Virus record (IMG/VR): IMGVR_UViG_3300025860_000098 | Coordinates: 1 to 22,243 of that record | Source: a virus | Strand: one strand, 5' to 3' | Length of the DNA stretch: 22,243 bases | Part shown: positions 1,373 to 17,717 of the stretch, piece after piece | Position numbering within the stretch: position 1 is the first letter of the stretch | How the letters are laid out: each line of letters starts with the position of its first letter | Translations under genes and position numbers: made by a program | Notes under the pieces: model-generated | Database searches by the model: none | Seen by the model: only the letters and a program-made list of their open reading frames with translations | What the model was told of the DNA's origin: nothing

Positions 1373-1406
1373 GTATTAGGTTATTGGATACAATTTTGCA
1401 AGGCAA
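1373..1406 (-). promoter_or_regulatory. GTAT-N11-ATAC dyad and putative leaderless promoter for the 1365 gene
   Basis: On the minus strand GTATCC-N7-TAATAC occupies 1391-1373. TTGCAA (1401-1396), 17 nt, TAATAC (1378-1373) and 7 nt then lead to ATG 1365, the same spacing as four other late genes in the window. A second possible -35 box, TTGCCT (1406-1401), would give a 5-nt-longer leader and keeps the register seen at 3144. The -10 box is a poor match to the sigma-70 consensus. The element is recognised by its repetition rather than by strong boxes. Confidence 0.45.
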
Positions 1407-1407
1407 A

Positions 1408-3144
1408 TTAGTCTATCGCCTTTAGGAATAAATGCCCGTGCTGTGCGGTAATGCTTGATGTGTCCGATTTATTTGTCGCCCAAATCTCGACATATTCGCC
1501 GGTTGCCAGAGAGACGATCCAGTTGATTGTTGCATGTGCTGCAACATTGTTTGTCGTTTCGCCGTTGGATTCTGTTGGATCGATTAGCACTCCATTTTTA
1601 GCAAGCTTGATTGCAATGTTTTTGTTTCCGGATCCGTCGATAATGTCAGTGCGAGCCATTGCCTGAAATACCCGAGTCGTGCCGCTGTTATTTTGCAGGC
1701 GGTTGTTTTGCGGCATTGTAATGCCATTCAAACTGTCGCTGGTTGTCGTGCCTGCCAGCTTCACGTAAGTGCCCGCCACTGCGATTGTAGTCGCTGCTGT
1801 AGCAGAGAAGTAAAGCTGGCCGTAGAGTGTGGTATCCAGAGCAGTGTTCCACGCATCGGCGTCAAAGCCCGGATAATTCGCTGGATCGCTTGCCAGTGTG
1901 CCGCCGTATGGTGCCGCACTCGATACGCTAGCCGCGCCGCCGACTGGTGCCAGCACTCGGATCGGAGTCGAGCAAATGGCGTCGTCGTCAATTCTGACTT
2001 CAAAGTAAAATTCGATAGACTGGCCGTCGCTCAGAGTTTGAACGATGCGCCCGACGTCTGCGTCCAAAGTGCCGCTGAATCCGTTTGTAATCGTCGACCA
2101 GGTATCTTGGAAAATAGCAGGCTGGCGGTTCACTTCGATGAGCTGCTGGCATTTGCTCGATGCGTCGCCTGTAACCGAGATTGACGGCACGACTACGCTT
2201 TCCGGAGTCAAGTCCACGCTTGCGCCAGTCAAAACGGTTCTGGCGCCATTTTCGCGCCATGTAGCCAGCCAGATGCCAGATCCGAGCTTTTGCACGTCGA
2301 CCTTACTGGGAGACGATACGCCGTCAATGTAGCTGTTGCCGCCCGTGCATCCGTCATAGGTTCCGTCATAGGTTCCAAGTGAGTCAACCGCCGTAACGCC
2401 GTCTAGGGATCCGCTGGATTGCTCATTAAGAGGCCAATTAGCTACGACCGTATCAACGCTTGTATCTTGAGATACTCCAACTTGCTTATATAATTTAACG
2501 TCTGACCAATCTGCCGCAGTCCACTGAACCGGGAATGTGGCATTCGCAAACCCAAGCAAGACAGAAGAAGGAGAACCCCCTGATAGGCTTACAGTGGATA
2601 TGAGGAATTCCCACTGGTTAGTGACTGTCGTAACAAATTTAATGGCATCGCTATTAGAAGTCTGCGCCCATTTATCTCCTGTGCTAGTGCTTCTAATCCA
2701 CGCTGTCAGGTAATACACTCCGTCGCCCGCAACCGAACAATCCGCATTGATCGCCTTATCGTCCACGCCATCTGTCGACGCGTAGTTGATGATCTCATTA
2801 TCGACGCCCGTGCCGCTATTCATTGCGTTCAGCACGTCCTCGACAGCCTGCGCCGATGCGGTCGCCGAAATCTCGGCACTGGTGCCACTTGAATCTGTTA
2901 TCGTGAAATTGCCGCTTGTGGCAGTCTGCGCGCGCTGGCCGATTGCTACATTGACCGAGACTGCCCCGGATCCGCTGCGGCTGTCGTAGGTGCCGTCAGA
3001 TTTGACCAAGTAAAGATTGTAGGTCTCAGTCGTGCCGGCCACGATCTCGCGCAGCGGCACCCTTGCGGATGGCCGATTAAGCCCTGCGACAGGTGCGGAT
3101 TCGATGCTGCCGTTGTCGGTATTGATGTAGATCGTGCGTGCCAT
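1408..3144 (-). CDS. Tail fibre/structural protein with inserted carbohydrate-binding-like region and C-terminal jelly-roll
   Basis: 578 residues. Residues 1-110 (MARTIYINTDNG..., then YNLYLVKSDGTY and VNVAIGQRAQTATSGNF) look like a phage structural domain. Residues about 283-400 (DVQKLGSGIWLATWRENG, then QQLIEVNRQPAIFQDTW) look like its continuation. Between them, about 113-282, is a region of different character with YYLTAWIRS and WPLNEQSSG...YDGTYDG, resembling carbohydrate-binding or LamG-type modules. Residues about 440-578 form a beta-rich tail (GQLYFSATAATT, IAIKLAKNGVLI, YVEIWATNKS, HGHLFLKAID) like TNF/C1q-type knobs. Inferred role: a fibre or receptor-binding protein. The start is at ATG 3144, directly after a dyad promoter. 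An in-frame extension upstream is blocked by a stop. Confidence 0.8.
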   Translation of the reverse strand: MARTIYINTDNGSIESAPVAGLNRPSARVPLREIVAGTTETYNLYLVKSDGTYDSRSGSGAVSVNVAIGQRAQTATSGNFTITDSSGTSAEISATASAQAVEDVLNAMNSGTGVDNEIINYASTDGVDDKAINADCSVAGDGVYYLTAWIRSTSTGDKWAQTSNSDAIKFVTTVTNQWEFLISTVSLSGGSPSSVLLGFANATFPVQWTAADWSDVKLYKQVGVSQDTSVDTVVANWPLNEQSSGSLDGVTAVDSLGTYDGTYDGCTGGNSYIDGVSSPSKVDVQKLGSGIWLATWRENGARTVLTGASVDLTPESVVVPSISVTGDASSKCQQLIEVNRQPAIFQDTWSTITNGFSGTLDADVGRIVQTLSDGQSIEFYFEVRIDDDAICSTPIRVLAPVGGAASVSSAAPYGGTLASDPANYPGFDADAWNTALDTTLYGQLYFSATAATTIAVAGTYVKLAGTTTSDSLNGITMPQNNRLQNNSGTTRVFQAMARTDIIDGSGNKNIAIKLAKNGVLIDPTESNGETTNNVAAHATINWIVSLATGEYVEIWATNKSDTSSITAQHGHLFLKAID

Positions 3145-3146
3145 TG

Positions 3147-3180
3147 GTATTCAGATATTGGATACTGGTTGAATTGTCAA
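3147..3180 (-). promoter_or_regulatory. GTAT-N11-ATAC dyad and putative leaderless promoter for the 3144 gene
   Basis: Minus strand: TTGACA (3180-3175), 17-nt spacer, TATCTG (3157-3152), 7 nt, ATG 3144. The dyad GTATCC-N7-GAATAC covers 3165-3147 and overlaps the spacer and -10 box. Translating upstream in frame from this ATG meets a TGA inside the element, so here the repeat cannot be coding. That supports reading all copies as DNA control sites. The rest of the 3145-3269 gap holds only an AT-rich 7-bp hairpin (3241-3257) with no T-tract. Confidence 0.55.
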
Positions 3181-3269
3181 TTTAAGATTCTAAAGGATGG
3201 GGTTTTGGGTTATGGTTAAAATTGATTAGTAGCACGAGCTTGTTATATATTATAACATATAGGTGGGTA

Positions 3270-4076
3270 TTAGTAAGTGTAGAAGTCGAGCGATATGATT
3301 TCGGCATACCCGTTGCGCACGGTTGAGCCATTCGTGTATGTTATCTCAGAAATAAGTAAAGATGCGTCAACGGTTCCGCTATATACTCCAGAGTTCTGAG
3401 CGATGGCCGCGCATGTTAGCCATATTGGTGATCCCTCGCTACCCATGTTTACATATTGGTAATCCTCAGCAATGGACGATATGTTTTCTTCATTTAAATA
3501 ACCGCCTAGCACGGTCGAGCAAAACCCAGTTGCCGCCCCGCCAGTGCATCCTATGAATGTGGTTCTAGGATTTAATGGTCTAGCCAATGTTGCCCCGTGT
3601 CCAATGAAATTGTCTTCACTGCTAGTTGACCCGTTATACATTCGGCAGATGTTGAGTCTATTTGATCCTATCTGAGCATGTGGGAAAATTGAATTGTTAG
3701 GATCGGTTGTTGAAGATTGTAAGCCTAGCGTCTCGCATACTCTATCTTTAGGCTCCGTGGCGATCCCCGATTCGTTAAACACCTCAAATATGGCACTGCT
3801 AACCGAATTAATATTGCCACTTATATTTTCATACGCGGCATCGCAGTTGATTTCATTAAGGTTCCAAAACAGCTTCATTCCAGCCGCTAGGGAGTCGGCA
3901 ACACTCTTTGCCTTTGCAGCATCGTCAATCGGCGTATTAACCTTGCTCCACCCGCCTAACGTAGTCCAGTAGTCATATGGACTGCCGTCTCCCCTGTCGG
4001 CAACATTGACTTTAGGGGGGCAAAACGGAAACCCGTTGCCTGCGCCTAGTGCTGTAAATGGTGTTGCTGTTGGCAT
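3270..4076 (-). CDS. Unknown virion-associated tail protein, cysteine-containing
   Basis: 268 residues, not recognised as a named family. It begins MPTATPFTALGAGNGFPFCP and holds WTTLGGWSKVNTP, about seven cysteines and a tyrosine-rich end. It looks secreted-like in its many Asn/Ser/Thr/Gly residues, but no signal peptide is present, which suits an exposed virion protein. The ATG shares one base with the stop of the upstream gene (TAATG), and AAGGAG lies 11 nt before it, so translation is probably coupled. It lies in the tail-tip block between the tape measure and the fibres, so a tip or decoration role is inferred. The gene is followed by a 125-nt gap and the 3144 promoter. Confidence 0.8.
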   Translation of the reverse strand: MPTATPFTALGAGNGFPFCPPKVNVADRGDGSPYDYWTTLGGWSKVNTPIDDAAKAKSVADSLAAGMKLFWNLNEINCDAAYENISGNINSVSSAIFEVFNESGIATEPKDRVCETLGLQSSTTDPNNSIFPHAQIGSNRLNICRMYNGSTSSEDNFIGHGATLARPLNPRTTFIGCTGGAATGFCSTVLGGYLNEENISSIAEDYQYVNMGSEGSPIWLTCAAIAQNSGVYSGTVDASLLISEITYTNGSTVRNGYAEIISLDFYTY

Positions 4077-4549
4077 TATTCTGGCGACTCCTTGAAAAAG
4101 ATTTGTCCCTCGACTGGCTCGCCGTCCTTGCAGATCACCACGTCCAAAAGTTGCATCCCGATTAGCGAGAAATTTTGAATGCCACTAGTGGGGTCGTAAA
4201 ACATGACCTGCGGGAGCGGGTTGCTTTCGCCGTCCTCTAAGTCTGGGTCTCCTTGAAGCCATAAAGCCTCATTTTCCGCAACACTCCAAGCCAAAATTCC
4301 CTTGAAGTCTGGAACATTAGGAATAGTGCCTGGATATTCTGGCAAACCGCTACCACCATCATCCGGCAGTTCACTGCCGCCCGTTGTAATGATCTCAGTT
4401 GATCCTTCACCAGCTACTAATTTAGGGGATTCAGTCGATGAACCCTCACGAACTTTTGCGTTTAATAGTGAGTTGAGATAGCGTATGACCTCATTTAGTT
4501 TCTTGCTTTTGGCGAGTGAACCGCTTTTAATTTCTTCAATTCTTGCCAT
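4076..4549 (-). CDS. Small acidic tail-region protein
   Basis: 157 residues. The N-terminus (KSKKLNEVIRYLNSLLNAKV, about 14-33) looks like a short amphipathic helix of the type seen at the start of small phage tail-tip proteins. A proline/glycine-rich acidic linker follows (about 55-85). The C-terminus ends LLDVVICKDGEPVEGQIFF, a beta-hairpin-like finish seen in other phage proteins of this position. Function is unknown. It overlaps the upstream gene by one base (TAATG) and has GTGAGG about 8 nt before the ATG, so it is probably translated by coupling within the tail-tip operon. Confidence 0.75.
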   Translation of the reverse strand: MARIEEIKSGSLAKSKKLNEVIRYLNSLLNAKVREGSSTESPKLVAGEGSTEIITTGGSELPDDGGSGLPEYPGTIPNVPDFKGILAWSVAENEALWLQGDPDLEDGESNPLPQVMFYDPTSGIQNFSLIGMQLLDVVICKDGEPVEGQIFFKESPE

Positions 4550-5463
4550 TATAAAGCCCTCACTTTTACGTCTGCTTTTTGGATGATGTTACCTTGCAAT
4601 CGAGTTACGTTTGACTCGATAGTTAAGTAATTACCAGAAGAAACTTGTGTATTATAAGTCGCTTGGTCTGGAATAGTTGTATTTGTTAATGTATTTACCG
4701 CGGCGCCGGTCTCTGCGCTGAACGGTGAAAATACTGGGCTCTCAGTAACATCCTCTGGATTAGTGATGCCGGAAGTGACGCCGGGCAAATAGTATGTATA
4801 ATCAATTAAGGTTCCCGTTGAAATAGTTTTTTGTCCAGATGGTTGAATCACTAATTCTGTTACGGTTCCCGATACGAACGTAGCTCCAAGTGCTATCGCT
4901 GGCATTTTTATTACACTACCAGTCGTCCCATTTAGTGCATAAGCGTATCCAGATGGAGTAAGTGTAGTTGCGCCAGAGGTCGTTGTCACTGTATAGTAAA
5001 AAGCCTCACCGACTGACACTGTATTAGTGCATGTCAAAGTTGTAACGCCTGCTGTATTAGAAGCAGCGGTGACAGTGCGATCTGTTCCGCCTTCTTTATC
5101 GGCTGCACGCCCCGGATAGTTAAATGCCGTAGTGCCGCCAAATACATTATTGCGCGTTGATGGTATCGTGCGGAATACTCGATCAAAGCGAAGCATTACT
5201 GAGTTTACCACTTGATGATTAAAGTCGCCGACGTAATACGCCTCCGCGTCTGCTGTAAATGGCAAGCTGATGACATCAGCATTCAATGCACTTGCCATTG
5301 TTGTATCCAGCGCAATCGGCGCATAATCCGCCTCATTGACTTCGCAGACCAGATGATAAACTTTCGTCGTATTATCGCCATATTCAATGAATGGATATTC
5401 GATCCAGCTTTCGCCGTTTGCTCTCGCCGATGTAAAGTCTCCGGATGTGTATGGTATGCTCAT
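4549..5463 (-). CDS. Putative minor tail/tail-tip protein
   Basis: 304 residues encoded directly after the tape measure, where siphophages usually carry distal tail or tip proteins. The N-terminus is MSIPYTSGDFTSARANGESW, with YHLVCEVNEADYAPI and then MLRFDRVFRTIPSTR (about 97-111), the kind of conserved strand pattern seen in tail proteins. The second half is Thr/Gly/Ser-rich and probably beta-structured. It shares the opening MSIPY-S/T-S/T with the 8293 gene product, which may be chance. The ATG overlaps the tape-measure stop (ATGA); AGGAG lies rather far upstream. No enzymatic motif is seen. Tail-tip assignment rests on position. Confidence 0.75.
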   Translation of the reverse strand: MSIPYTSGDFTSARANGESWIEYPFIEYGDNTTKVYHLVCEVNEADYAPIALDTTMASALNADVISLPFTADAEAYYVGDFNHQVVNSVMLRFDRVFRTIPSTRNNVFGGTTAFNYPGRAADKEGGTDRTVTAASNTAGVTTLTCTNTVSVGEAFYYTVTTTSGATTLTPSGYAYALNGTTGSVIKMPAIALGATFVSGTVTELVIQPSGQKTISTGTLIDYTYYLPGVTSGITNPEDVTESPVFSPFSAETGAAVNTLTNTTIPDQATYNTQVSSGNYLTIESNVTRLQGNIIQKADVKVRAL

Positions 5464-7076
5464 GGATTTTTCTGAATCTCCTCTTTAATAGTTGTAAGTA
5501 ATTTTGTCTGCTCTTTTAGCTCTGCATCGGTGCCTTTTGCGTTTTCGGCAGCTGCTTTATCATTTGCACTTGTGCCGCCCACATCTCGCCCAGCAGTTGT
5601 TCCCGTAAGCCCTGCCCCCCGTTCGCGTTCGGTCATTCGTTGCTCGCGTTGTTTTTGGCGCTCTATTTCAGATGCTCCAATTTCTGCCGATCTTTCTGCT
5701 CTTTCACGCGCGCGCCTTGCTTGGTCTTCTTTTCTTTGCCGACTTTCTTGTGCGCGTTGCTCTCTCGGCGTGACGTATCCGCTTTGATTTGTGTCGCCCG
5801 CTGCAAACTTCTTATCTGAGCCGCCTGTGCCGGTGCCGCTGGTGCCGCCGCCATTTCCTGTGCCGCCAGCGCCGCCTCCAGTTCCAGTGGTTCCAAATGC
5901 TTTGCTGATATTGTCAGCCACTTGCCTAGATTCTTGCAGCAGTTTGCGCTGCTCGTCGATTGCTTCGTCGTAAAATTCCCCGGGATCGTATCCAAAGCGG
6001 TTTTTCATGTCGAACTTTTCCTGCTTTGACATTCTCTCGTCAAAGTAGTCGGCGAATGTTTTTGCTCCCTTTTCTAAATCTCGATCTAAGTCCTCATACA
6101 TTTTTTCAGTATCAATTAGGTCGATGTTGATTTTAGGTATCTTATTCACCTTTTCCAACAGCGGGTTGATCGACTCGGCTAGTGTTATCTTTAACTCCGT
6201 GCCTATCAATCCAATAGTGGATGAGAGCTTGTCGTATAAATAGTCTGCGAAAGCCCCGAATGCGTTGCGAGCGAGTGCAATGGTGTCCATTATGCCGTCT
6301 ACCATTCCAACGCCAAGCTGCGAGCCAGCTTTAGCAATAGCAAGACCAAGCATTTTCAAAGCAGCACCATCAGCTTCGCCGGCGATCAGTTCACCTACTT
6401 TAATTGTCGCCTTGTTTTTAAATCGCTCGATCTGGTCAGCGGCTTTATCGAGAGCTTTTTGAGTTGCCTCGTCCATTATGCCATACGCCGCCTCAATGTC
6501 TTTTGCCATCTTGCCGTAGCCATCTTTGTCCAGTCGTTTAAATACTTCGATCAATCGCGGAGCGTTTCGTTGCCCGAATATTTCAATCGCGGCAGTCAGT
6601 GCGCCCTGCTGATCCTTTGCGCCTGCAATAGCCTTGCCGATTGCTTGAAACTGATCCTCCGGCTTCATCTTGCGTAGATCGTCTACATTTAGCCCCAGAC
6701 GCTCGAAAGCCCGCGTGTAGGTAGTCATGCCTTCGGAGCCTTGCACAATCGCCTTTTGCATCAGCGTAATCGCCTTTTCCATGTTCTCAGCTTTGCCGCC
6801 GGCATCGATTAAAGCGCCACGGAATACTTGAAATTCCCTAGTGGCAAATCCTGTAGATTCTGCGACGTCAGACAAATACGAGCCAAGCTGGATTGCATTT
6901 CTCGAAAGCAAAAGCACTGCCGCCGACGCTGACGCAAGTCCCATTTTTGCCAAAGCGTTTGAAGCACCGACAACGGCTTTTTGCATTTTTCCAACAGCTT
7001 GCTTGCTACGCTGAATCCCGCGCTGAAAGCCCGTCGAATCCAAATTGAGTCTGCCTGTGATGTCTGCTTTAGCCAT
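5460..7076 (-). CDS. Tail tape measure protein
   Basis: 538 residues. The start MAKADITGRLNLDSTGFQRGIQRSKQ with coiled-coil heptads to about residue 110 is typical of tape measure N-termini. A hydrophobic helix-like stretch lies at about 41-58. The middle has TTYTRAFERLGLNVDDL and FEQ/AIEIFGQRNAP-type motifs common in prophage tape measures. Residues about 397-425 are a glycine/threonine linker, followed by a highly charged Arg/Glu/Lys region (about 440-490) that is probably helical. In this family, length sets tail length; at about 1.5 angstroms per residue this would give a short tail of roughly 80 nm (a rule-of-thumb estimate). It overlaps the upstream gene by 8 nt and the downstream gene by 4 nt. 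Confidence 0.85.
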   Translation of the reverse strand: MAKADITGRLNLDSTGFQRGIQRSKQAVGKMQKAVVGASNALAKMGLASASAAVLLLSRNAIQLGSYLSDVAESTGFATREFQVFRGALIDAGGKAENMEKAITLMQKAIVQGSEGMTTYTRAFERLGLNVDDLRKMKPEDQFQAIGKAIAGAKDQQGALTAAIEIFGQRNAPRLIEVFKRLDKDGYGKMAKDIEAAYGIMDEATQKALDKAADQIERFKNKATIKVGELIAGEADGAALKMLGLAIAKAGSQLGVGMVDGIMDTIALARNAFGAFADYLYDKLSSTIGLIGTELKITLAESINPLLEKVNKIPKINIDLIDTEKMYEDLDRDLEKGAKTFADYFDERMSKQEKFDMKNRFGYDPGEFYDEAIDEQRKLLQESRQVADNISKAFGTTGTGGGAGGTGNGGGTSGTGTGGSDKKFAAGDTNQSGYVTPREQRAQESRQRKEDQARRARERAERSAEIGASEIERQKQREQRMTERERGAGLTGTTAGRDVGGTSANDKAAAENAKGTDAELKEQTKLLTTIKEEIQKNP

Positions 7077-7689
7077 TGTTGAGTTCAGTTAAATATTCGC
7101 GGCGCAGGTTCATGAGTGACTCCGGCTGCGCCAGTTTGTAGTCCGGTATGGTGGCAATGCGGATTGCCTTCTGTAGTTGAAAAATTCGATTGAGCGGCCA
7201 GTCCAGCACATCGGCAGGATCACGCCCGTATCTGTGCGCCACTTCGTCCACCGCGCAGACGATGCCCTCGACGGCAGGCAGGCCATTGTTGCGCGATACT
7301 TTGCCGCCATTGGTTCCGGTCGACACCGGGATCTCCTCAAACGCCGCGCGAGAATGCTCATAAGCCGCCAGGATGACGCTTTCCAAGTCTTGCTTGCCAA
7401 GGGTTTCACCCAGTGCCTCCTGCGCTTTCTCGGTCAAATGTGTGCGTTTGGCTGCGTATTGCGCAGAGTTGCGCCAGTAGTAAGCGCAGACGTCCTGAGT
7501 GGTCGGCACGCCGCCGATTACGAAAGCATTCTCTGCCAGTCGCAGATCCACCCATGCGCGCGCCGTCAGTGGCTCCATTTCGACGCCGCAGATGCTTTGG
7601 CATACGCTAGCACTCGACCACGCCAAAAGCCGCTCCTGCGTGATTCTCGCGGATTCCTCGTTGTATTCTGCTATCAGGTGGTCGATCAT
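7069..7689 (-). CDS. Putative tail assembly protein upstream of tape measure
   Basis: 206 residues if started at ATG 7689 (MIDHLIAEYNEESARI). A TTG at 7701 would add four residues but lies in the terminator T-tract and is unlikely. The protein is helical and mixed in charge, with EGIVCAVDEVAHRYGRDPADVLDWPLNRIFQLQKA (about 145-179, quoted in part), a pattern like phage proteins that sit just before the tape measure and act as assembly chaperones. No frameshift partner was found. It overlaps the tape measure start by 8 nt. It sits directly after terminator 7704-7735 with no dyad promoter, so expression probably depends on read-through. Confidence 0.7.
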   Translation of the reverse strand: MIDHLIAEYNEESARITQERLLAWSSASVCQSICGVEMEPLTARAWVDLRLAENAFVIGGVPTTQDVCAYYWRNSAQYAAKRTHLTEKAQEALGETLGKQDLESVILAAYEHSRAAFEEIPVSTGTNGGKVSRNNGLPAVEGIVCAVDEVAHRYGRDPADVLDWPLNRIFQLQKAIRIATIPDYKLAQPESLMNLRREYLTELNNG

Positions 7690-7699
7690 CTTATTTAGC

Positions 7700-7735
7700 A
7701 AAAAAGCGCCGCCCGCACTTGGGCAGACGACGCTT
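7700..7735 (-). terminator. Intrinsic terminator after the 7911 gene
   Basis: On the minus strand a 13-bp hairpin (7735-7704, several G-U pairs, 6-nt loop) is followed by six T residues (7705-7700). It is about 30 nt after the stop of the 48-residue gene and 11 nt before ATG 7689. It would separate tail-tube expression from the tape measure, either as a full stop or as an attenuator that lowers downstream expression. Confidence 0.7.
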
Positions 7736-7764
7736 TCAACTTATCACGATTATGAACAAACAAA

Positions 7765-7911
7765 TTAGGTTTCTGACTTCTTCGCTTTCGGCGTTTCAGC
7801 ATCGCCGCGCTCGATGAGCCATTCGGCGACGCCTTCCGATACGTCAACGGTGGCGCCCTTTTTTTCGAGCGCGCCCCGGATCGACTTAGGCTTTAAGAGT
7901 GTGACTTTCAT
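7765..7911 (-). CDS. 48-residue phage protein, tail region
   Basis: A short gene missed by length cut-offs: ATG 7911, stop TAA at 7765-7767. The sequence MKVTLLKPKSIRGALEKKGA is followed by VDVSEGVAEWLIERGDAE and a Lys-rich end. This pattern (MKV-LLKP, then a spacer, then a V-WLI-RG-AE motif) recurs in very small phage proteins located in head-tail regions; the function is unknown to me. It starts 7 nt after the tail-tube-type gene and precedes the terminator, so it is co-transcribed with that gene. No Shine-Dalgarno sequence is seen. Confidence 0.65.
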   Translation of the reverse strand: MKVTLLKPKSIRGALEKKGATVDVSEGVAEWLIERGDAETPKAKKSET

Positions 7912-7918
7912 CAGTCAA

Positions 7919-8293
7919 TTAAGCTTGGTAAGTAACGAGAACGGCGGACATTTCAAATGTGTCGAAAGCGTCCTTGTCGCGTGCAACAGTCACGTCCTTA
8001 ACAACGAGCGTCGAGGCTGTGCCGCTGCGGTCGTAGTCGTGTGTGAATGTCGTGCCCTCAGGTGGCAATACAGTGGTATCGGTTGCGCGTTGCAGCGTGT
8101 AACTGACTTCAATCTGATCGCTTCCGGCGCGAAGCTGGAAATCAGCACGGTCGCCATTTGCGTCGGTGCGGCTGATGATGCGGTTTTCTTTAGAAGCGCC
8201 AGAGCAGGCGTCAACGATGTAAGGAACGGCATTGATAGTAACTGACTCAAATCCTTGAGGCAGGTTAGTGGTGGATGAATAGGGTATAGACAT
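7919..8293 (-). CDS. Putative major tail tube protein
   Basis: 124 residues. It starts MSIPYSSTTNLPQGFESV and continues with a beta-rich body: ADFQLRAGSDQIEVSYTLQR, then TFTHDYDRSGTASTLVVKDV and a C-terminal strand FEMSAVLVTYQA. The gene lies after the neck/terminator genes and before the tape measure, where the tube protein is expected. It has its own dyad and a terminator two genes downstream, which suits a protein needed in many copies. It is shorter than most tube proteins, so a different small virion role remains possible. The leader is A/C-rich with no Shine-Dalgarno sequence. Confidence 0.65.
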   Translation of the reverse strand: MSIPYSSTTNLPQGFESVTINAVPYIVDACSGASKENRIISRTDANGDRADFQLRAGSDQIEVSYTLQRATDTTVLPPEGTTFTHDYDRSGTASTLVVKDVTVARDKDAFDTFEMSAVLVTYQA

Positions 8294-8321
8294 TGTAGTT
8301 TATGGTTGGCGGTTGGTCTGT

Positions 8322-8358
8322 GTATCCAAATTTATAATACAGGAAATGCGGATGGCAA
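8322..8358 (-). promoter_or_regulatory. GTAT-N11-ATAC dyad with promoter boxes upstream of the 8293 gene
   Basis: The dyad GTATTA-N7-GGATAC covers 8340-8322 on the minus strand. TTGCCA (8358-8353) and TATAAA (8336-8331) are 16 nt apart and form the best-looking -10 box of the set. Unlike the other copies, the ATG is about 30 nt further on, so this transcript would have a leader (ACAGACCAACCGCCAACC and on) without a Shine-Dalgarno sequence. Confidence 0.5.
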
Positions 8359-8835
8359 GACGGAAATTTGCCCATCGAAAGAAAGTGTTGTTTCGTCAAA
8401 CTCAGATTCCTGCGAGTGTGCGGTGCCGGCAGGTCTCAGAAACTCGAATTCGTAGTAATTCAAATAGCCCTCAAGTGCGGATCCTTTGGCCTGCGATATA
8501 CTGAGCCAAGTCCGCATCGCGGAAGTCAGTGCTTGGTGCCTTGATCGCAGCGGTGGTGTCACGTTGCCAGACTCGTCAAAGCGCGCTGTGCGGATTGTGA
8601 TCTCCAGCGAGCAAGCGTATTGGTCGTATTCTGGAGTAGCTGCGCCGCCCGGTGCCGGATTGTAGTGCCCCGTCACGGCGCCGAGTTCGAGCTTTGCGCC
8701 GATGTAATCGTCTGGCAGGATGTCAAACTCGATTGTCTGGTATAGCTCGACCTGGTTGTCGGCCAGCCATGACTTGAACGCCGCCTCGACGTTGCCTTCA
8801 AAATTGTATAGCTCGATTAAATTTGCAGCTGGCAT
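8332..8835 (-). CDS. Putative tail terminator/tail completion protein
   Basis: 167 residues from ATG 8835 (MPAANLIELYNFEGNVEAAF). It has the size and alpha/beta pattern of tail terminator proteins: an N-terminal helix, EFDILPDDYIGAKLELGAV, a strand EYDQYACSLEITIRTAR, then a helix RHQALTSAMRTWLSI and a final strand region. The location, between a gp10-like gene and the tail-tube candidate, agrees with this. The longer frame starting at TTG 8871 adds twelve residues encoded by a TTGACA box and the dyad, and is judged an artefact. The stop overlaps the dyad of the next gene. The function is inferred from position and length. Confidence 0.7.
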   Translation of the reverse strand: MPAANLIELYNFEGNVEAAFKSWLADNQVELYQTIEFDILPDDYIGAKLELGAVTGHYNPAPGGAATPEYDQYACSLEITIRTARFDESGNVTPPLRSRHQALTSAMRTWLSISQAKGSALEGYLNYYEFEFLRPAGTAHSQESEFDETTLSFDGQISVLPSAFPVL

Positions 8836-8838
8836 GTT

Positions 8839-8871
8839 GTATCCAATAAATGGATACCGCGCATTTGTCAA
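8839..8871 (-). promoter_or_regulatory. GTAT-N11-ATAC dyad and putative leaderless promoter for the 8835 gene
   Basis: Minus strand: TTGACA (8871-8866), 17-nt spacer, TATTGG (8848-8843), 7 nt, ATG 8835. The dyad GTATCC-N7-GGATAC (8857-8839) is perfect in both 6-nt arms. The TTGACA box overlaps the TGA stop of the upstream gene. This is the closest match to the element at 14497: both have a perfect TTGACA and the same TATTGGATAC core. Confidence 0.6.
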
Positions 8872-9713
8872 CGCACTTTAAGCCCTGCCTTTTTTGCGTT
8901 GTCTCGGAGTATGAACTTTAATCTGCGCTCCATTGCTTTGAGCCGTTCGACTTTAATAAATGTTAAATTGTTGTCTTTTACATGGTAGAGCGCGTCTGCG
9001 CTTGCTCTAAAGATTGCGCTCCACCCGCCGCCAATCTTCGCCATGCGCGCATTGCCCATGACTTTGTTGAGTTGCCGCTTTACCCACTTGGGCACGTTGC
9101 GACCCTGCTTTGGGTTCAGTTTCAGCATGGCTTTGGAGACTGACGCTTTTCCCTTGCCTAAATCTTTGATCAGATAGTCTTGCAACTGGTTGTAGATGTC
9201 TTGATTCACCCACATAACATTGCGATCTTTCCATCGCCCGATCTTAGTGTCTTTGCCGCCCTTTCTTCGTTGAAATGCCCGGCCTGTAACTTTGCTTTGC
9301 CTACTTCTGTGGAACCTTAAAGCTTCGCCAAAATTGCCGAGATTGAGATAGTCAATGTCAACGACGTATTGCTTGCCTTTTTTATTCCTGAGAACTTGTC
9401 GAATATTCGCGGTTTTTCCAGTCACGTCAAATATGTGTTCAATGTAACTTTGATCTCTGACTCGAAAATTCGTTGCCAAGTCTTTTCGTATCGATGTCAC
9501 GCCAGCCTCGTAATCTGCCATCTTGTTTGGTGCGACGTTTGCACCTTTCAAGCTATAGACTTTATACGGCGGCACGATTTTGGCAATATCGCGCAGCAGC
9601 AACGCGCCCTGCTCGCTAACAAACTCCTTCTCATCCACGCCGACGCGCTTCGCTAAGTCGCGGATCTTCTTTTGGAAGATAGCATCGTCCAGCGTGAATC
9701 CTTTTTTAGCCAT
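8868..9713 (-). CDS. Basic head-tail/minor tail protein (HK97 gp10 or lambda gpZ type)
   Basis: 281 residues, very rich in Lys and Arg. The N-terminus (MAKKGFTLDDAIFQKKIRDL, then EQGALLLRDIAKIVPPY at about 30-46) matches the opening of phage minor tail proteins of the gp10/gpZ type, with the usual helix followed by a PP turn. The C-terminal half is strongly basic (for example KLNPKQGRNVPKWVKRQL) and could touch DNA or an acidic tail surface. It overlaps the preceding gene by 8 nt and ends in the promoter of the next one. The role is inferred: joining or completing the tail. Confidence 0.7.
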   Translation of the reverse strand: MAKKGFTLDDAIFQKKIRDLAKRVGVDEKEFVSEQGALLLRDIAKIVPPYKVYSLKGANVAPNKMADYEAGVTSIRKDLATNFRVRDQSYIEHIFDVTGKTANIRQVLRNKKGKQYVVDIDYLNLGNFGEALRFHRSRQSKVTGRAFQRRKGGKDTKIGRWKDRNVMWVNQDIYNQLQDYLIKDLGKGKASVSKAMLKLNPKQGRNVPKWVKRQLNKVMGNARMAKIGGGWSAIFRASADALYHVKDNNLTFIKVERLKAMERRLKFILRDNAKKAGLKVR

Positions 9714-10026
9714 TGCGCTTGGTCTTATTTTTGGCGATCAGCTCGACGTTGCCGGTGCTGATCTTCACTTCAGTAATAAAGAAAGTCTCGCCGGTGGCAG
9801 TGCGCACGAACGTCTGAGCCTTATTCGGAATGATGTTGAGACTAGCCAGCGCAATGACCAGCGTGACCGTCGGCTGGTCATCCGTGCCAAACTCGTTCAT
9901 TTCCCATGAATTCGTTTGCTCATCGAATACTGCCTGCACGGTCTGGCCATTGATTGAAATAGGCTCGCCCATGATGCCTGTAGCCTCCTGAGTGGCGTTT
10001 GTAATGAAGTCAGTAAACTGTGTCAT
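9706..10026 (-). CDS. Small head-tail connector-region protein
   Basis: 106 residues from ATG 10026 (MTQFTDFITNATQEATGIMG). It contains EPISINGQTVQAVFDEQTNSWE, then PTVTLVIALASLNIIPNKAQTFV and ETFFITEVKISTGNVELIAK, a beta-strand pattern seen in small head completion or stopper-like proteins (lambda gpFII region, similar size). A longer frame from GTG 10110 would start inside the terminator stem and be read through the promoter, so it is rejected. Translation is linked to the next gene by an 8-nt overlap. The function is inferred from position and secondary-structure pattern. Confidence 0.7.
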   Translation of the reverse strand: MTQFTDFITNATQEATGIMGEPISINGQTVQAVFDEQTNSWEMNEFGTDDQPTVTLVIALASLNIIPNKAQTFVRTATGETFFITEVKISTGNVELIAKNKTKRNG

Positions 10027-10029
10027 GCT

Positions 10030-10062
10030 GTATTGAATAAGCCGATACAGCGCAAATGGCAA
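10030..10062 (-). promoter_or_regulatory. GTAT-N11-ATAC dyad and putative leaderless promoter for the 10026 gene
   Basis: Minus strand: TTGCCA (10062-10057), 17-nt spacer, TATTCA (10039-10034), 7 nt, ATG 10026. The dyad is GTATCG-N7-CAATAC (10048-10030), with one mismatch between arms. It lies a few bases after an intrinsic terminator, so it appears to start a new transcript for the neck genes. Confidence 0.55.
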
Positions 10063-10067
10063 GACGT

Positions 10068-10101
10068 AAAAAAGCCGCCCACCCTTTCGAGTAGACGGCT
10101 T
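10068..10101 (-). terminator. Intrinsic terminator with GAAA loop
   Basis: Minus strand hairpin with 13-bp arms (10101-10089 and 10084-10072, some G-U pairs) closed by a GAAA tetraloop and followed by six T residues. It lies just after the stop of the 10373 gene. It should stop transcription coming from the capsid side. Confidence 0.8.
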
Positions 10102-10124
10102 TCTTTTCACTTATGATCCCACAA

Positions 10125-10373
10125 TCAGACAGATTTTGGTTTGCGGCCGCGCTTCTTTGGCGCCTCTTCGATGGCCTCGGCAGACTCAACTGTCAGACGT
10201 TTCGCCTTATAAGTTTTGCGCTTTTCAAGCTGCCCTTTGCGGATGTAAACTACGTCGCCCGGCTCCTCGCAGTCCAAGTAAGCTTGTAGGCAGGCTGTTG
10301 CGTCGCTGCCATATGCAAGGCAGGTTTCTTTACCGTCGATGTCGCGGTGGATTGTTACGGATGGTATATACAT
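10125..10373 (-). CDS. Small protein with AT-hook-like basic tail
   Basis: 82 residues. The body (MYIPSVTIHRDIDGKETCLA...YLDCEEPGDVVYIRKGQ) is beta-like. The C-terminus EEAPKKRGRKPKSV has the RGRKP form of an AT-hook, which in known proteins binds the minor groove of AT-rich DNA. Such tails are common in small phage proteins and can also simply neutralise charge. It is the single gene between the capsid terminator-like hairpin and the terminator at 10068-10101. The function is unknown; a head-associated or DNA-contacting role is a guess from location. No Shine-Dalgarno sequence lies in front of the ATG. Confidence 0.65.
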   Translation of the reverse strand: MYIPSVTIHRDIDGKETCLAYGSDATACLQAYLDCEEPGDVVYIRKGQLEKRKTYKAKRLTVESAEAIEEAPKKRGRKPKSV

Positions 10374-10390
10374 AGTTTTTAGAAAGTTAA

Positions 10391-10418
10391 GAGAGCCGCC
10401 GCATAGACGACGGCTCTC
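10391..10418 (-). terminator. Terminator-like hairpin after the capsid gene
   Basis: Minus strand hairpin with 11-bp arms (10418-10408 and 10401-10391, one G-U pair) and loop TCTATG. What follows is TTAACTTTCT, a broken T-tract, so termination may be partial; the hairpin could also protect the 3' end of the capsid message. Confidence 0.5.
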
Positions 10419-10432
10419 AATTTAGGGGCAGG

Positions 10433-11320
10433 TTAAGCAGATGGAACGCGAACGCCGAAGTCTTGACCCTTGGCAACGCCATAGAGCAGACCGACAGAGT
10501 ATTTCAACTCGCCAGCGTTTTTGTCATACCAGCGGCGCCATTGAATAGGCAGACCGAGACCTGGGATTTCGATGTCAACGAGTTCGCCGCCGTTTTCGAC
10601 GAAGCCCTCGGAGTCAACGCGGCGACCTGCGAACAGGAGCGAGCTGCGATGGAATGCGAATGCTGCGAGATCCTCGCCGTTTGCATCGCATTGGTCAGAT
10701 TCGTAAACGTCAAACTTGTTGACGCGAGGAACCATGCCTTCAGCCTTCATGTCGCTTTGGCCAGGGAACTCAGCAGAGTTCAGGCTTTTAAGCAGCGAGC
10801 CGTAGTAGGTAGGGTTCATCCAGACCGAGCGGCCAGTGCGAGGTGCCTTCTTCGTTTCGGTCAGAGTCTGGCCGAGGTCGATGAGATCATCGCGGTCGAA
10901 GTTGGCAGCTGTGATGGCGCTGGTTGCAGTTGCGAAGTTAGCAGCTGTGATCAAGTTCCAGATGTCACCAAAGATCTTGTCGCCGAGAGCATTCAGAGAA
11001 GGCTCAACGAAAAGGTCATTCAGGCGAACCGAAGACTTGGAGCGCTCAACGTCCTTGAATCCATAAACGAATCCGTAGAAAGTATCGAGCGTGATGGTTG
11101 CAGCAGTCATCGCAGTATTTTGCGAAGTGTAACCACTTGAGAGATCGACAGCAGTCGGTTTGGTAGGGTAGCGTGTAGTAACGCTAGCGCCCTCGGAGCC
11201 TACATCAGACGAAAAGTCTGTGACAAGCGCAGAAAGCGGTTGGAGCATGGATGTGAGCGCAGGAAGGGATTCCTCCGCGATTTGTGCCAGATTGACTCCG
11301 GCGATGGTGTTGGTAGCCAT
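10433..11320 (-). CDS. Major capsid protein
   Basis: 295 residues. The order portal, protease, this gene, neck genes fits the major head protein, and the sequence agrees: an N-terminal helix region (IAEESLPALTSMLQPLSAL), VTTRYPTKP, a long DLFVEPSLNALGDKIFGDIW helix at about 103-122, GRSVWMNPTYYGSLLKSL and a conserved C-terminal GLGLPIQWRRWYDKNAGELK. These are features of HK97-fold coat proteins of about 300 residues (P22/P2-like small coats). The leader is A/C-rich (AACCTCCAACCCATAAAAA) with no Shine-Dalgarno sequence, despite expected high expression. A strong hairpin follows the stop. Confidence 0.85.
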   Translation of the reverse strand: MATNTIAGVNLAQIAEESLPALTSMLQPLSALVTDFSSDVGSEGASVTTRYPTKPTAVDLSSGYTSQNTAMTAATITLDTFYGFVYGFKDVERSKSSVRLNDLFVEPSLNALGDKIFGDIWNLITAANFATATSAITAANFDRDDLIDLGQTLTETKKAPRTGRSVWMNPTYYGSLLKSLNSAEFPGQSDMKAEGMVPRVNKFDVYESDQCDANGEDLAAFAFHRSSLLFAGRRVDSEGFVENGGELVDIEIPGLGLPIQWRRWYDKNAGELKYSVGLLYGVAKGQDFGVRVPSA

Positions 11321-11341
11321 TGTTTTTTTATGGGTTGGAGG

Positions 11342-12364
11342 TTAAAGGTTCTCTAGCAGATGCTTGTTGGCTTGGTGCCAAGCGTGCTTTTCAGATGGAT
11401 GCTGGTCATTGTAAGCTTTCCAGTATTCGCTCTGATTTGCGAATTGCTTGACGCTTTCGTCGCCGGCTGCTTCTTCGATAGCTTCCTGCGTTTGCAGTGC
11501 CATGAGTTCAGCGGCCTTGGCTGCGACAGCTTGAGCGGTTGCAGTTTCAGCGTTTTCAATTTCGGCTTTATGTTCTGTATTCATTTCTTCGATACGAGCA
11601 TTAAGCAGATCGCGCTCAGTTTGCAAGGCAGAAATGCTCTCGGCATTTTTTGCAAGCTGATCGTTTGCACTGGTAAGCTCCGAGTTGATAATTTCAATTT
11701 CACCGGCGAGCTTTGCAGTTGCGCTGGCAATCATCTTTTCAACTGGCAGCGTGACGCTGGCCTTGGCTGCGATTGCTGCCATGTCTGCGACAGATGCAGC
11801 CATTGCAAGCTTGCCGTCGATGCGGTCGATGAAGTCAGCTGCAAGTGCTTCCTCGGCGGTGAACCATGTGGTCGCGTCCATGAGAGCAGTCAATTCCTCG
11901 GCATCGTATCCGCTGCGAGAATACGCATTGATGATCGACGCCTTCATCTTGTCCATGAGATCCGCATCCTTGCGCAGCTGCTCGCTGTCGCCGATGGATA
12001 CAGTCCAAGGGTTGTGAATCATAAGCAACGCGTTTTCAGCCATGACGATTTCGTCGCCGGCCATAGCGATGACGGATGCCATGCTTGCTGCCATGCCATC
12101 GATGTAAACTGTGACGTTTGCCGGATGGCGCTTGATGGCGTTGTAAATTACATTGCCTTCGATGATGGATCCGCCTGGTGAGCTGATCCGCAGATCGATG
12201 TTAGAGACTTCGCCGAGCGATTCGAGCGACGCGATGAAGTCGTTTGCGGTAACGCCCCATCCTCCGATCTCATCATAAATCGAGATTTCGGCGCTGCCAG
12301 TCGCATTGCCTTCGGAGTCTTTGGCGATTTCCATTGCATACCAGTTATTGGTTTCGGTTTTCAT
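11342..12364 (-). CDS. Head maturation protease, ClpP/S49-like, with coiled-coil scaffold-type C-terminus
   Basis: 340 residues from ATG 12364 (MKTETNNWYAMEIAKDSEGN). Residues 25-190 are a ClpP-like fold: EISIYDEIGGWGV, oxyanion segment RISSPGGS (59-66), catalytic Ser94 in DGMAASMAS, His117 in MIHNPW. Residues about 205-300 form a long coiled coil (ALQTERDLLNARIEEMNTEH), and the end is a scaffold-like tail. In lambda-type phages the protease and scaffold share one gene, with the scaffold made from an internal start; Met211 (nt 11734) or Met261 (nt 11584) could serve here. Inferred role: processing of head proteins and core of the prohead. It overlaps the portal end by 20 nt. The frame extends to ATG 12481, but homology of the fold begins near residue 1 of the start chosen here. 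Confidence 0.85.
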   Translation of the reverse strand: MKTETNNWYAMEIAKDSEGNATGSAEISIYDEIGGWGVTANDFIASLESLGEVSNIDLRISSPGGSIIEGNVIYNAIKRHPANVTVYIDGMAASMASVIAMAGDEIVMAENALLMIHNPWTVSIGDSEQLRKDADLMDKMKASIINAYSRSGYDAEELTALMDATTWFTAEEALAADFIDRIDGKLAMAASVADMAAIAAKASVTLPVEKMIASATAKLAGEIEIINSELTSANDQLAKNAESISALQTERDLLNARIEEMNTEHKAEIENAETATAQAVAAKAAELMALQTQEAIEEAAGDESVKQFANQSEYWKAYNDQHPSEKHAWHQANKHLLENL

Positions 12365-14144
12365 TGTTAGTATTGGGTTGGTTTTCTTCTTCGTCGTCAT
12401 CGTCCTCCGATTCGACTTGTTGTATTTCAGCAGATACTTGCTCTCCTGACTGTAAAGTAATTGGACGTCTGAATCCTCCATCGTCGATCCATGCTTTTTT
12501 CACTGCATCCGAAACAGGAGGCAATCCAGATTCTGATCTGAATGCGTCCTCATCATCTGCTTGAGGTGTAATACTTCCAGCACGAACGCCTACGCCGTAA
12601 GAATCAAACTTGGCCTTTAGGTTTTCAAATTGTAATAGTTGCTTTTTATGCTCCAATTCTTCTTCGCTTACTTGCTCGGCACCTTGCTGATCTCCAGGCT
12701 TGGTTAAAATTCCGAGTTGCGACTCATCGATGCCATATTCGGCAGCGATGTCTTGGCGCATCTTCGCATTTGCAGCGAGCTTGTGCAGGATGTCGCTGTA
12801 GTTCATGCCACGCGCCTCGACAATTGCATCCTCGGTGATTAGGCCAGCGCGCAAATCTTCGATTTCGGCCTTGCGCATCCGCCCTTCGTCCACAGTGAAC
12901 TGTGCTGGCTTTGTGAACGTGACTCGATACCAGTCCTCGGGTAGCGTGTAAACGCCCTGCTTTGCACGCTTGGCGATGATGTAAAGCGCCGCGCGTTGCA
13001 TTGCCATGTGTAGCACTTCGCAGCGCGTAGCGATCGATTTGTTGACGTCTGCCGCAAATCCGCGAACGCCAGCACCGCCGACCTTGGAACTGTCCAGCAT
13101 CTCACGGCGCCAGCCCATCGCATAAAATGCGGAGCTTTCCACCAGATGCGTAAAGTTGAGCCACTGATCAGATGGCCGCGCCGAGCTATGCGCTGTCAGG
13201 GATCCGCCGTTTTTGATGTAGCGAATCAGCCCCGAGTCCATGAGCTGCGTCTGTAAGCGCCCGTCGCTGCCCGGCATCGGATTGACAACTGAGTTGCCCA
13301 TATCCATGCGACCAGATTCGTTTGACTCGATCAGCGCCAAAGCAGAGTTTACTTTCTGTGATACCTTTTCGGCGTCGCGCGTCTCGGCCAGATCATACCA
13401 GTCGAGAATCGCAGCGGCGACAGTTGGCTGGCCTCGGCACTGCGAGAACCATTTGAAATCGTTTACGTGGATGACGCCATTTGCAGGCACGTCCTGGTAG
13501 CCGCGCTTCATAGAGTCATCAGCCACGCGATAAGCGATTGGCTCCATGTAGTCATTGACAATCACGCCATTAAAGATGCGGCGCCCTGCATAGGTGCCCT
13601 CCTGAATGACAGTCTCGCCATTCATATTGACCGAGCTAATTCGGTGCGCTTCCAAGAATTGCAGCTTCGGAAATCCAGTCTCTTTATTTTCTGACAGGAT
13701 GATAAAATAGTCGCCGTCCACGTCGAGCGTCTTGGATCCGATCCATGCTGACTTGCGAAATGAAAAGCCATTGCCCCGAGTATCGAGCAGACGGTCGATC
13801 TGTTCAAAGTCCTTCTCGACGGCTTCAACGAACGCCTTGTCTTTACTCAGTGATTGCAAGCGCCATGCGTTGCCGTAAACGTAGTTGGCCTTTTGATCGA
13901 CCGCGCCCGATACAGTTGAAAATGCTTGATAGATGTAGCGCGAATCGCCCAGCATCATGCGCTGGCGGTGATCGATCATGATCTCGGCGATGTCTTTTGC
14001 CAGCTTTGCACGCCCGAATCGGCGCTGGTCGTCCGCGCCGCCCGGGTAGAATTCATTCGTGCCGCCGCGCCCCCAGAATGAGACGATGCCGGATTTCAGC
14101 TTGTTGCCGACTCGCGGCAGTAATTTGATAGGTGATACAGCCAT
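12345..14144 (-). CDS. Portal protein, lambda-type
   Basis: 599 residues. The N-terminal third has RYIYQAFSTVSGAVDQKANYVYG and the QIDRLLDTRGNGFSFRKSAW region of lambda gpB-like portals. NGVIHVNDFKWFSQCRGQP (about 222-240, quoted in part) matches the conserved segment before the stem. The C-terminal part has KPAQFTVDEGRMRKAEIEDL and a long glutamate/asparagine-rich end. The protein forms the dodecameric DNA entry ring at one head vertex. Its ATG shares one base with the stop of the preceding gene (TAATG). The last 20 nt overlap the protease start. No internal disruption is seen. Confidence 0.9.
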   Translation of the reverse strand: MAVSPIKLLPRVGNKLKSGIVSFWGRGGTNEFYPGGADDQRRFGRAKLAKDIAEIMIDHRQRMMLGDSRYIYQAFSTVSGAVDQKANYVYGNAWRLQSLSKDKAFVEAVEKDFEQIDRLLDTRGNGFSFRKSAWIGSKTLDVDGDYFIILSENKETGFPKLQFLEAHRISSVNMNGETVIQEGTYAGRRIFNGVIVNDYMEPIAYRVADDSMKRGYQDVPANGVIHVNDFKWFSQCRGQPTVAAAILDWYDLAETRDAEKVSQKVNSALALIESNESGRMDMGNSVVNPMPGSDGRLQTQLMDSGLIRYIKNGGSLTAHSSARPSDQWLNFTHLVESSAFYAMGWRREMLDSSKVGGAGVRGFAADVNKSIATRCEVLHMAMQRAALYIIAKRAKQGVYTLPEDWYRVTFTKPAQFTVDEGRMRKAEIEDLRAGLITEDAIVEARGMNYSDILHKLAANAKMRQDIAAEYGIDESQLGILTKPGDQQGAEQVSEEELEHKKQLLQFENLKAKFDSYGVGVRAGSITPQADDEDAFRSESGLPPVSDAVKKAWIDDGGFRRPITLQSGEQVSAEIQQVESEDDDDEEENQPNTNNENRNQ

Positions 14145-14497
14145 TAGAAACGCCCTCCGGCGGATTGTGCGAAGCGAGCCTTGGCGACATTTGTCACTTG
14201 ATCGTCAGCATCGACAACATAGGCATTCAGCTCGGCATCAGTCATTTGCCCGCCGCTTGCGCCGCCGGTTGTGAGTATTTTGTAAAGACCGCGCAGAGTC
14301 TCAATGAAATCAGAATTTGACCAGTTCGGCGGTAGCTCGTAACTGAACTGTTTGCCAGCCACGTTTGCCGATACGATGCGAGCGCCACCGCGTGATTGCG
14401 TATCGTATTCGCCCAGTGCCAGCGTCTCAATGAGAGCAAGCGCAGCCGCTGCGTCCTTTCCAGACTTGATCCAAATGACAAAAAGTAATGCTCGCAT
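14144..14497 (-). CDS. Small head protein in the gpW position
   Basis: 117 residues from ATG 14497 (MRALLFVIWIKSGKDAAAAL). It lies between the terminase and portal genes, where lambda has gpW. The stretch RIVSANVAGKQFSYELPPNW followed by FIETLRGLYKIL recalls gpW's pattern of a short beta pair and then a helix, but the protein is longer than gpW (68 residues). It may be a head-tail joining protein; confidence in that is low. A longer frame from TTG 14551 would begin inside the terminator T-tract and run through the promoter, so ATG 14497 is preferred. It overlaps the portal by one base. Confidence 0.65.
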   Translation of the reverse strand: MRALLFVIWIKSGKDAAAALALIETLALGEYDTQSRGGARIVSANVAGKQFSYELPPNWSNSDFIETLRGLYKILTTGGASGGQMTDAELNAYVVDADDQVTNVAKARFAQSAGGRF

Positions 14498-14500
14498 AAC

Positions 14501-14533
14501 GTATCCAATAAGCGGATACGGTTGCGCTGTCAA
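14501..14533 (-). promoter_or_regulatory. GTAT-N11-ATAC dyad and putative leaderless promoter for the portal/capsid block
   Basis: Minus strand: TTGACA (14533-14528), 17-nt spacer, TATTGG (14510-14505), 7 nt, ATG 14497. The dyad GTATCC-N7-GGATAC (14519-14501) has perfect 6-nt arms. It lies about 20 nt after an intrinsic terminator and is the only promoter candidate in front of the portal, protease and capsid genes, so it should be a main late promoter. Confidence 0.6.
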
Positions 14534-16713: not shown

Positions 16714-17408
16714 TTCAGATCCACGCCATTCAAGTAGTTTTCGCCCTCGGATTGCATCACGTCCACGATCCACTCTGGCAGCTGCACTTTGCCCGGCGAC
16801 TTCATGACAGCCTTGAATCCTTCAAATAATCGACCGCCCAGGATCGCCGGCGCCAGCTTCTGGTAGATCGCATTCGGGTTGCTCTCACTCGCCAGCACTT
16901 GGCAAATCTCTTTCAGCTGATTGCGCACGCACGCATTGCCGGCGTAAATGACCGCCTTCATGATGCGCTCGACTTCTTCGCGCTGTATCGTCTCCCCTTG
17001 CTCAAGTCCGAGCTTGCGCTCATGCGCTTGGGATTCGCGGATGCACTTTTCAGCTTTAAGCAGCAGATCAGTCCAGTGCTTCACTTCGTCAGCAAGATTG
17101 GCCGCAGTTGCAATATTCAACTGGCCGGCGAAATAATCGCGAAACTGCTCCAGCGTTTTACGATCCTCGACTGTTTTTGGAGTCTCGATCTTTTCTGGCA
17201 TTTGCTCGATTGCGTGTTCCTTTTCAATCTCAACAACGCGGCGCTTTAAGTCCGGCTTCATCCGTCTATTCATTCGCAGCCACCGGCAGACTTCCAATGG
17301 ATCGAAAGGATCCAGTTTGCATCCGTCGCGCTTCCAATAAGAAACTGCCCGCTGATTTGTTTCAAAGTAATCAGCTATCTTGGTTTGCGTTGCTTTATCC
17401 TTAGACAT
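16710..17408 (-). CDS. Terminase small subunit, Nu1-like
   Basis: 232 residues from ATG 17408 (MSKDKATQTKIADYFETNQR). Residues 8-32 form a helix-turn-helix with TKIADYFETNQRAVSYWKRDG, very like the winged HTH at the start of lambda Nu1, which binds the cos region. The middle is helical and charged (about 75-145), and the C-terminus GKVQLPEWIVDVMQSEG probably contacts the large subunit. It starts DNA packaging by site recognition. The frame can be extended to TTG 17462, but the domain begins at the start chosen here. No Shine-Dalgarno sequence. The 90-nt gap upstream contains only a weak 5-bp hairpin (17428-17445); a cos site may lie nearby but none can be proved. Confidence 0.8.
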   Translation of the reverse strand: MSKDKATQTKIADYFETNQRAVSYWKRDGCKLDPFDPLEVCRWLRMNRRMKPDLKRRVVEIEKEHAIEQMPEKIETPKTVEDRKTLEQFRDYFAGQLNIATAANLADEVKHWTDLLLKAEKCIRESQAHERKLGLEQGETIQREEVERIMKAVIYAGNACVRNQLKEICQVLASESNPNAIYQKLAPAILGGRLFEGFKAVMKSPGKVQLPEWIVDVMQSEGENYLNGVDLK

Positions 17409-17498
17409 GGTTTTTCTGTTTTTAGATTCGCGCTCAAAAACGCGACAAGTCATATCACCCAAAATTGATGCGTTGATAAAAGATTCCTTGCACGGGGT

Positions 17499-17717
17499 CT
17501 AGCTTCGCCACGTCTGCCTCCACTTGTTCGGCTTGGTGAATCGTGCCATATCGTCCTCGGCATAAAGAAACAAGTCGCCGCGATCCGGATCGTAAACGAA
17601 GTCGATGCCATTGAATGATCCTGCGCCTGACAGAAACTCTACAACTTCATCGTAAGCGCCCAGCATATCAAATCGCTTGAGCAGCTTCTTGATCTTGCGT
17701 GATGTGAACCAGTTCAT
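17499..17717 (-). CDS. Small protein of unknown function
   Basis: 72 residues: a basic N-terminus (MNWFTSRKIKKLLKRFDML) followed by an acidic, aromatic body (YDEVVEFLSGAGSFNGIDFV, DRGDLFLYAEDD). No family is recognised. It has the clearest Shine-Dalgarno sequence in the window (GGTGGAGGGAG about 4 nt before ATG) and overlaps the HTH gene upstream by 4 nt (ATGA), so the two are translated together. It may act with the HTH protein, but this is only a guess from the coupling. Confidence 0.7.
   Translation of the reverse strand: MNWFTSRKIKKLLKRFDMLGAYDEVVEFLSGAGSFNGIDFVYDPDRGDLFLYAEDDMARFTKPNKWRQTWRS

Follow-up and report, generated by a model that had tools for sequence, protein, structure and literature searches.

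In mycobacteriophage L5, many copies of one operator, the stoperators, are found through the late region near gene starts. These sites are asymmetric, and their reader is the lysogeny repressor that L5 itself encodes. As a rule, late operators of phages are recognized by phage proteins, and phage late promoters often depend on an activator. The activators C of phage Mu and Lpa of phage P1 are phage proteins whose dyads lie upstream of or at the -35 element. In Verrucomicrobia, the SOS regulator LexA has the motif TGTTC-N4-GAACA. The sites of the nucleoid occlusion protein SlmA of E. coli are palindromic, non-degenerate, scattered round the chromosome and located mainly in coding regions (PMC3116907). 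SlmA is also reported to act directly at a promoter in Vibrio cholerae (PMC5519180).

The motif considered here is a 19-bp dyad, GTAT-N11-ATAC, in the window, i.e. the whole 22,243-nt stretch of viral DNA that was analysed. The window is an IMG/VR fragment near the Verrucomicrobia phage P8625 (KP792622), with a major capsid 98.3% identical to that of this phage. The dyad resembles the L5 stoperators in that one operator occurs in many copies near gene starts of a phage late region, but its sites are symmetric, they occur in a lytic phage in the case of P8625, and the host chromosome carries the same motif. With Mu C and P1 Lpa it shares the repetition of one dyad at several late promoters of one phage; in contrast to their sites, it covers the -10 element at a variable distance from the -35. 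Its sequence also differs from the Verrucomicrobia LexA motif.

Dyads and promoters in the window

The pattern GTAT-N11-ATAC, which itself fixes the outer GTAT/ATAC bases, matches the window eight times, compared to 0.09 matches expected from 100 dinucleotide shuffles (largest count, 1). The first-pass annotation had estimated 0.3 chance matches per 22 kb; the rarity it claimed stands, and its value was conservative. It had placed six copies in front of minus-strand genes and two further matches within coding sequence, and exactly these eight were recovered (Table 1): six at gene starts on the minus strand and two within the head-maturation protease gene. The spacing is specific, since every other gap from 3 to 21 nt gives only 0-2 matches in the window.

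Table 1 Positions of dyads, promoter elements and neighboring features in the window
Feature	Sequence	Position	Strand	-35 hexamer	-10 element	Gene and remarks
Promoter dyad	GTATCCGCTTATTGGATAC	14501..14519	(-)	TTGACA 14533-14528	TATTGG 14510-14505 (-10-like)	First head gene, orthologue of P8625 gene 8, ATG 14497-14495; 17-nt spacer; 7 nt from -10 to ATG
Promoter dyad	GTATCGGCTTATTCAATAC	10030..10048	(-)	TTGCCA 10062-10057	TATTCA 10039-10034 (-10-like)	Head-tail gene, ATG 10026
Promoter dyad	GTATCCATTTATTGGATAC	8839..8857	(-)	TTGACA 8871-8866	TATTGG 8848-8843 (-10-like)	Gene with ATG 8836
Promoter dyad	GTATTATAAATTTGGATAC	8322..8340	(-)	TTGCCA 8358-8353	inside TATAAATT 8336-8329	Gene with ATG 8293, judged by its position probably the tail tube gene; leader ~28 nt
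Promoter dyad	GTATCCAATATCTGAATAC	3147..3165	(-)	TTGACA 3180-3175	TATCTG 3157-3152 (-10-like)	Tail-fibre-like gene, ATG 3144
Promoter dyad	GTATCCAATAACCTAATAC	1373..1391	(-)	TTGCAA 1401-1396	TAATAC 1378-1373 (= right arm)	Small tail gene, ATG 1365; 17-nt spacer; 7 nt from -10 to ATG
Intragenic dyad		11577..11595	(-)			Head-maturation protease gene
Second intragenic dyad		11906..11924	(-)			Head-maturation protease gene; absent from P8625 and its relative G001
Terminator-like stem		14580-14554				Just upstream of the 14501 promoter
Terminator-like stem		10098-10079				Upstream of the 10030 promoter
HTH-like protein, 66 aa		17714..17914	(-)			P8625 gene 1; Pfam HTH_26 E=0.0022, below cutoff; sub-threshold Cro/C1 match

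Each promoter dyad lies inside a sigma-70-like promoter of the type TTGACA/TTGCCA-N17-poor -10, in keeping with the TTGACA-like -35 and TATAAT-like -10 hexamers 16-18 nt apart that are expected of such promoters. The -35 hexamers are good at all six promoters and the -10 boxes mostly poor; a strict consensus promoter scan is passed by the 8322 promoter only. On the coding strand, four sites share the layout TTGACA or TTGCCA, 8-9 nt, dyad, 2-3 nt, ATG, and at four sites the -10-like hexamer falls within the dyad (17-nt spacer). The distances from dyad to ATG are 3, 3, 3, 2, 7 and 28 nt. A fixed 11-nt distance between -35 and dyad was considered and rejected: the actual spacing is 7-12 nt (8-9 at most window sites, 12 at 8322). 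Seven nucleotides separate the -10 from the ATG at five of the six promoters, the exception being 8322 with its 28-nt leader. Because this spacing puts the ATG at the expected +1, late mRNAs from these five promoters would be leaderless.

Conservation of the dyad among phages

P8625, which infects the Puniceicoccales strain IMCC8625, has been described as a lytic phage with a host strain close to Coraliomargarita (PMC4642752). Its complete genome (32.9 kb) follows the same plan as the window and carries the same six promoter dyads plus the orthologue of the intragenic 11577 copy, with none elsewhere (P about 1e-6 for six of seven dyads falling at gene starts); the database record carries no promoter or operator annotation. 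In the P8625 counterpart of the 11577 dyad, GTATCCAAGAAATGGATAC (8089-8107), both six-base arms are perfect. Three IMG/VR relatives with 60-75% protein identity, G001 (36.3 kb), G002 and G003, have the dyad at orthologous promoters within changed flanks, and G001 contains over its whole length only five promoter dyads and the intragenic copy. The 19-mer at 1373 is identical at the orthologous place in P8625 and in G001-G003. The 11577 dyad is retained by every dyad-bearing relative examined; in the dyad-lacking relatives, the homologous codons do not contain it.

Searching by the pattern alone also brought up a second phage group (G018-G022). Its terminase identity is only about 25%, and it carries up to nine dyads, of which four are placed in promoters of the kind seen in the P8625 group; one promoter of G018, which carries nine sites, has the 1373 19-mer. 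The 11-nt gap stands out in all of these genomes (seven matches in P8625, six each in G001 and G002, nine in G018, and 0-2 for each other gap). A scan of the full phage genome and its relatives had been proposed as a check on the initial reading, and it bears this reading out: sites are conserved and enriched at starts (six of seven in P8625; orthologous promoters in G001 and G002). In the trees of MCP and terminase, the phages with dyads do not group as a single clade, and the portal tree is compatible with a single origin; in these trees L015 is labelled dyad-lacking though its contig stops short of gene 8. Phage genes, moreover, are mosaic.

Among relatives that lack the dyad, those with identities as low as about 50% still have TTGACA, followed at N30-36 by the gene 8 ATG; the most distant ones (41-46% identity) have another layout there. 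Since the dyad-lacking relatives retain the promoter layout, the dyad is, on this comparison, an added layer over the -10 of a more widespread promoter. This bears on the possibility that the dyad is an activator site, at which a phage or host regulator would recruit or remodel polymerase. The poor -10 hexamers (TATTGG, TATTCA, TATCTG) would fit such a role. We regard it as distinctly unlikely, however, because the same promoter is retained without the dyad in these relatives, and because the dyad covers the -10, with its centre near -13, and its distance from the -35 varies by several bases. A variable distance is easier to reconcile with a blocking site than with an activator site of fixed phase.

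A further question is whether the dyad acts as DNA or as RNA. The first-pass annotation had favored a DNA-binding dimer over an RNA hairpin, since the inner arm positions vary without compensating changes. This pattern was confirmed in 21 distinct phage sites: pairing is missing at the two inner arm positions in 11 and 10 of them, inner-pair covariation is matched by 336 of 500 shuffles, and the sole hint of compensation is a G-C for C-G swap in the innermost pair of the 10030 dyad. As the arms do not covary, an RNA hairpin is not indicated. Control of late-gene translation by a hairpin in the mRNA leader would agree with the four of six genes in which 2-3 nt separate dyad and ATG, and such a hairpin could fold in read-through transcripts. 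This reading is nevertheless extremely improbable given the missing covariation, a predicted transcription start downstream of the dyad, the 28 nt between the 8322 dyad and its ATG, and the occurrence of the motif genome-wide in host genes. A DNA-binding dimer remains the preferred reading, the sites being linked to promoters and conserved in divergent phages. The proposal of a shared late-gene operator is likewise supported, as a prediction from sequence, by symmetric sites that stand at several late promoters and are kept in relatives; the dyad is thus predicted to be a protein-binding operator shared by late genes.

Several further observations were made in these genomes. The annotated start of P8625 gene 13 (L040 9620-9656) is a TTG, namely the first three bases of the -35 TTGCCA; the conserved ATG at 9656 makes a better start. 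Upstream of the P8625 terminase lies a ParB-N6/N4 methylase gene (L040 604-1893), of which the window has a short fragment only (17408-17717). In G001 (L115 9632-10522), the capsid gene is about 29% identical to that of the window and the portal and several tail genes about 50-77%, which resembles a capsid swap. G018 (L170) encodes at 32687 and 32914 two adjacent lipoprotein-like genes, each with a dyad 33 nt past the ATG, in signal-peptide codons. The pattern scans with an 11-nt gap also gave an unrelated repeated element, which was set aside. The highly conserved element TTGACACAACATATAGG-GTATGGGATAATCCCATAC-CCTATG, unrelated to the dyad, recurs in many IMG/VR contigs (L041, L046, L048, L049, L053, L055, L057, L061-L063, L067, L073, L076, L077); its arms are near-perfect, with some compensated changes (GGG/CCC, AGG/CCT).

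The motif in host-group chromosomes

A P8625-like contig is present in an Opitutae MAG; the phage-host link rests on this one contig and on the isolation host of P8625, and the host genomes are mostly MAGs. In that MAG and two genus mates, GTATCC-N7-GGATAC occurs at 11 sites outside the phage contig, compared to 12 for 19 other spacings together. Across 44 Opitutae genomes of the family to which it belongs, the 7-nt gap gives 101 host sites and the gaps from 8 to 19 nt 71 in total (5.9 each), with 0 for the reversed control; these family-wide counts include orthologous sites and are not fully independent. The count has a bimodal distribution over 141 genomes of the order: some have up to 16 sites, most have zero (controls 0-1). 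One genome, G042, has 92 sites of the form GTATCC-N9-ATAC (82 on the main contig and 10 on a second; control 2), about one per 50 kb. On the main contig, position 7 is a purine in 75/82 sites and position 13 a pyrimidine in 60/82. A purine at position 7 is also found in five of the six phage promoter dyads.

Nearly all sampled host sites lie inside genes (22/22 and 18/20). As they are read in three frames and in different genes, an origin of the enrichment from a protein motif (YPxxGY) was rejected. No motif copy was found in a TTGACA promoter setting in the host genomes beyond chance-level matches, and transcriptional repression by this protein in the host thus gains no support from them. Literature searches for the motif found nothing. 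In G042, three GTATC-N9-GATAC sites lie within 5.2 kb near the GC-skew origin (contig C1:1116309-1121543, L268).

Like the sites of SlmA, the host motif is palindromic, enriched chromosome-wide and mostly located in coding regions. It differs in sequence (the SlmA site is GTGAGTACTCAC, 12 bp) and in its relation to the terminus, which SlmA sites avoid. Terminus avoidance of the host motif, hinted at by the strongest sites of G042, was rejected: the larger G042 set is even overall, and in G085 a perfect site lies about 0.2 Mb from the terminus and the site-free gap that was predicted to hold the terminus held the origin. The motif is therefore not named a nucleoid-occlusion site. Its distribution suggests that it behaves like a chromosome-marking motif.

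The symmetric and bipartite shape of the dyad would also suit the target of a host DNA methyltransferase, with methylation of the A in GTAT modulating the late promoters, and P8625 itself has a ParB/N6-N4 methylase gene. We consider this very improbable. The inner bases vary in a graded way, unlike those of a methylase target, the frequency of the motif is not neutral but raised, and the window phage has only a fragmentary match to the P8625 methylase.

Candidate readers and a proposed mode of action

The HTH-like protein encoded at 17714-17914 had been suggested in the first-pass annotation as a candidate for binding the dyad. It proved a poor one: apart from its sub-threshold Cro/C1 match, its gene is present only in the window and P8625 (87% identity), and tblastn found no homologue in the dyad-bearing G001 nor in G002 and G003, the latter two being partial contigs. 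G001 and G003 may encode a distant analogue, but this is doubtful, as the search profile already contained it. As a universal reader the protein was rejected, since it was not found in G001, G002, G003 or G018. No common regulator gene was detected between the G018 group and the P8625 group. P8625 has no annotated CI-like repressor and the dyad-bearing phages no common HTH, at odds with a lysogeny repressor reading stoperators.

A repressor or late regulator encoded by the phage, for example the 17714-17914 protein, may still read the dyad, in which case the host motif would be unrelated or convergent. The HTH gene common to the window and P8625, its weak Cro/C1 match, the possible very distant analogue in G001 and G003 and a clear HTH_3 protein in G001 are consistent with this, and the small HTH genes that exist (window 17714-17914; G001 24185 and 15439) could have converged or escape detection. 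We judge a phage-encoded reader unlikely, since tblastn gave no homologue in G001-G003 and no common regulator was detected in G018, all with the same operator, and since host genomes are enriched in these 12 fixed bases at an identical gap. The enrichment in host genomes points to a host reader, as does the failure to detect a phage regulator common to the dyad-bearing phages; the regulator is most likely host-encoded rather than phage-encoded.

From these data we infer the following sequence of events. A host dimer would occupy many chromosomal GTATCC-R-N5-Y-GGATAC sites, nearly all intragenic, as expected for a nucleoid or chromosome-organising protein. On phage DNA, its binding from about -22 to -4 would block RNA polymerase and so silence the late genes early in infection. 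They would be expressed once replicating phage DNA titrates the host protein, or once the protein is displaced. That a chromosome-wide host DNA-binding protein represses the phage late promoters until it is titrated or removed has, in our estimate, about an even chance of being correct. A more specific version is speculative and, taken as a whole, unlikely: a chromosome-organising protein of marine Opitutae would bind GTATCCR-N5-YGGATAC at about a hundred intragenic sites, and phages of at least two lineages would use sites over leaderless late promoters as a late-gene timer, with replication titrating the protein.

If a host protein does hold the late genes off, the phage would take its timing, in this uncharted host group, from the condition of the host nucleoid and not from a phage-coded switch. 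The 19-bp palindrome would then serve as a ready bait for a new nucleoid protein in Verrucomicrobia. Leaderless late mRNAs are predicted for the whole phage group.
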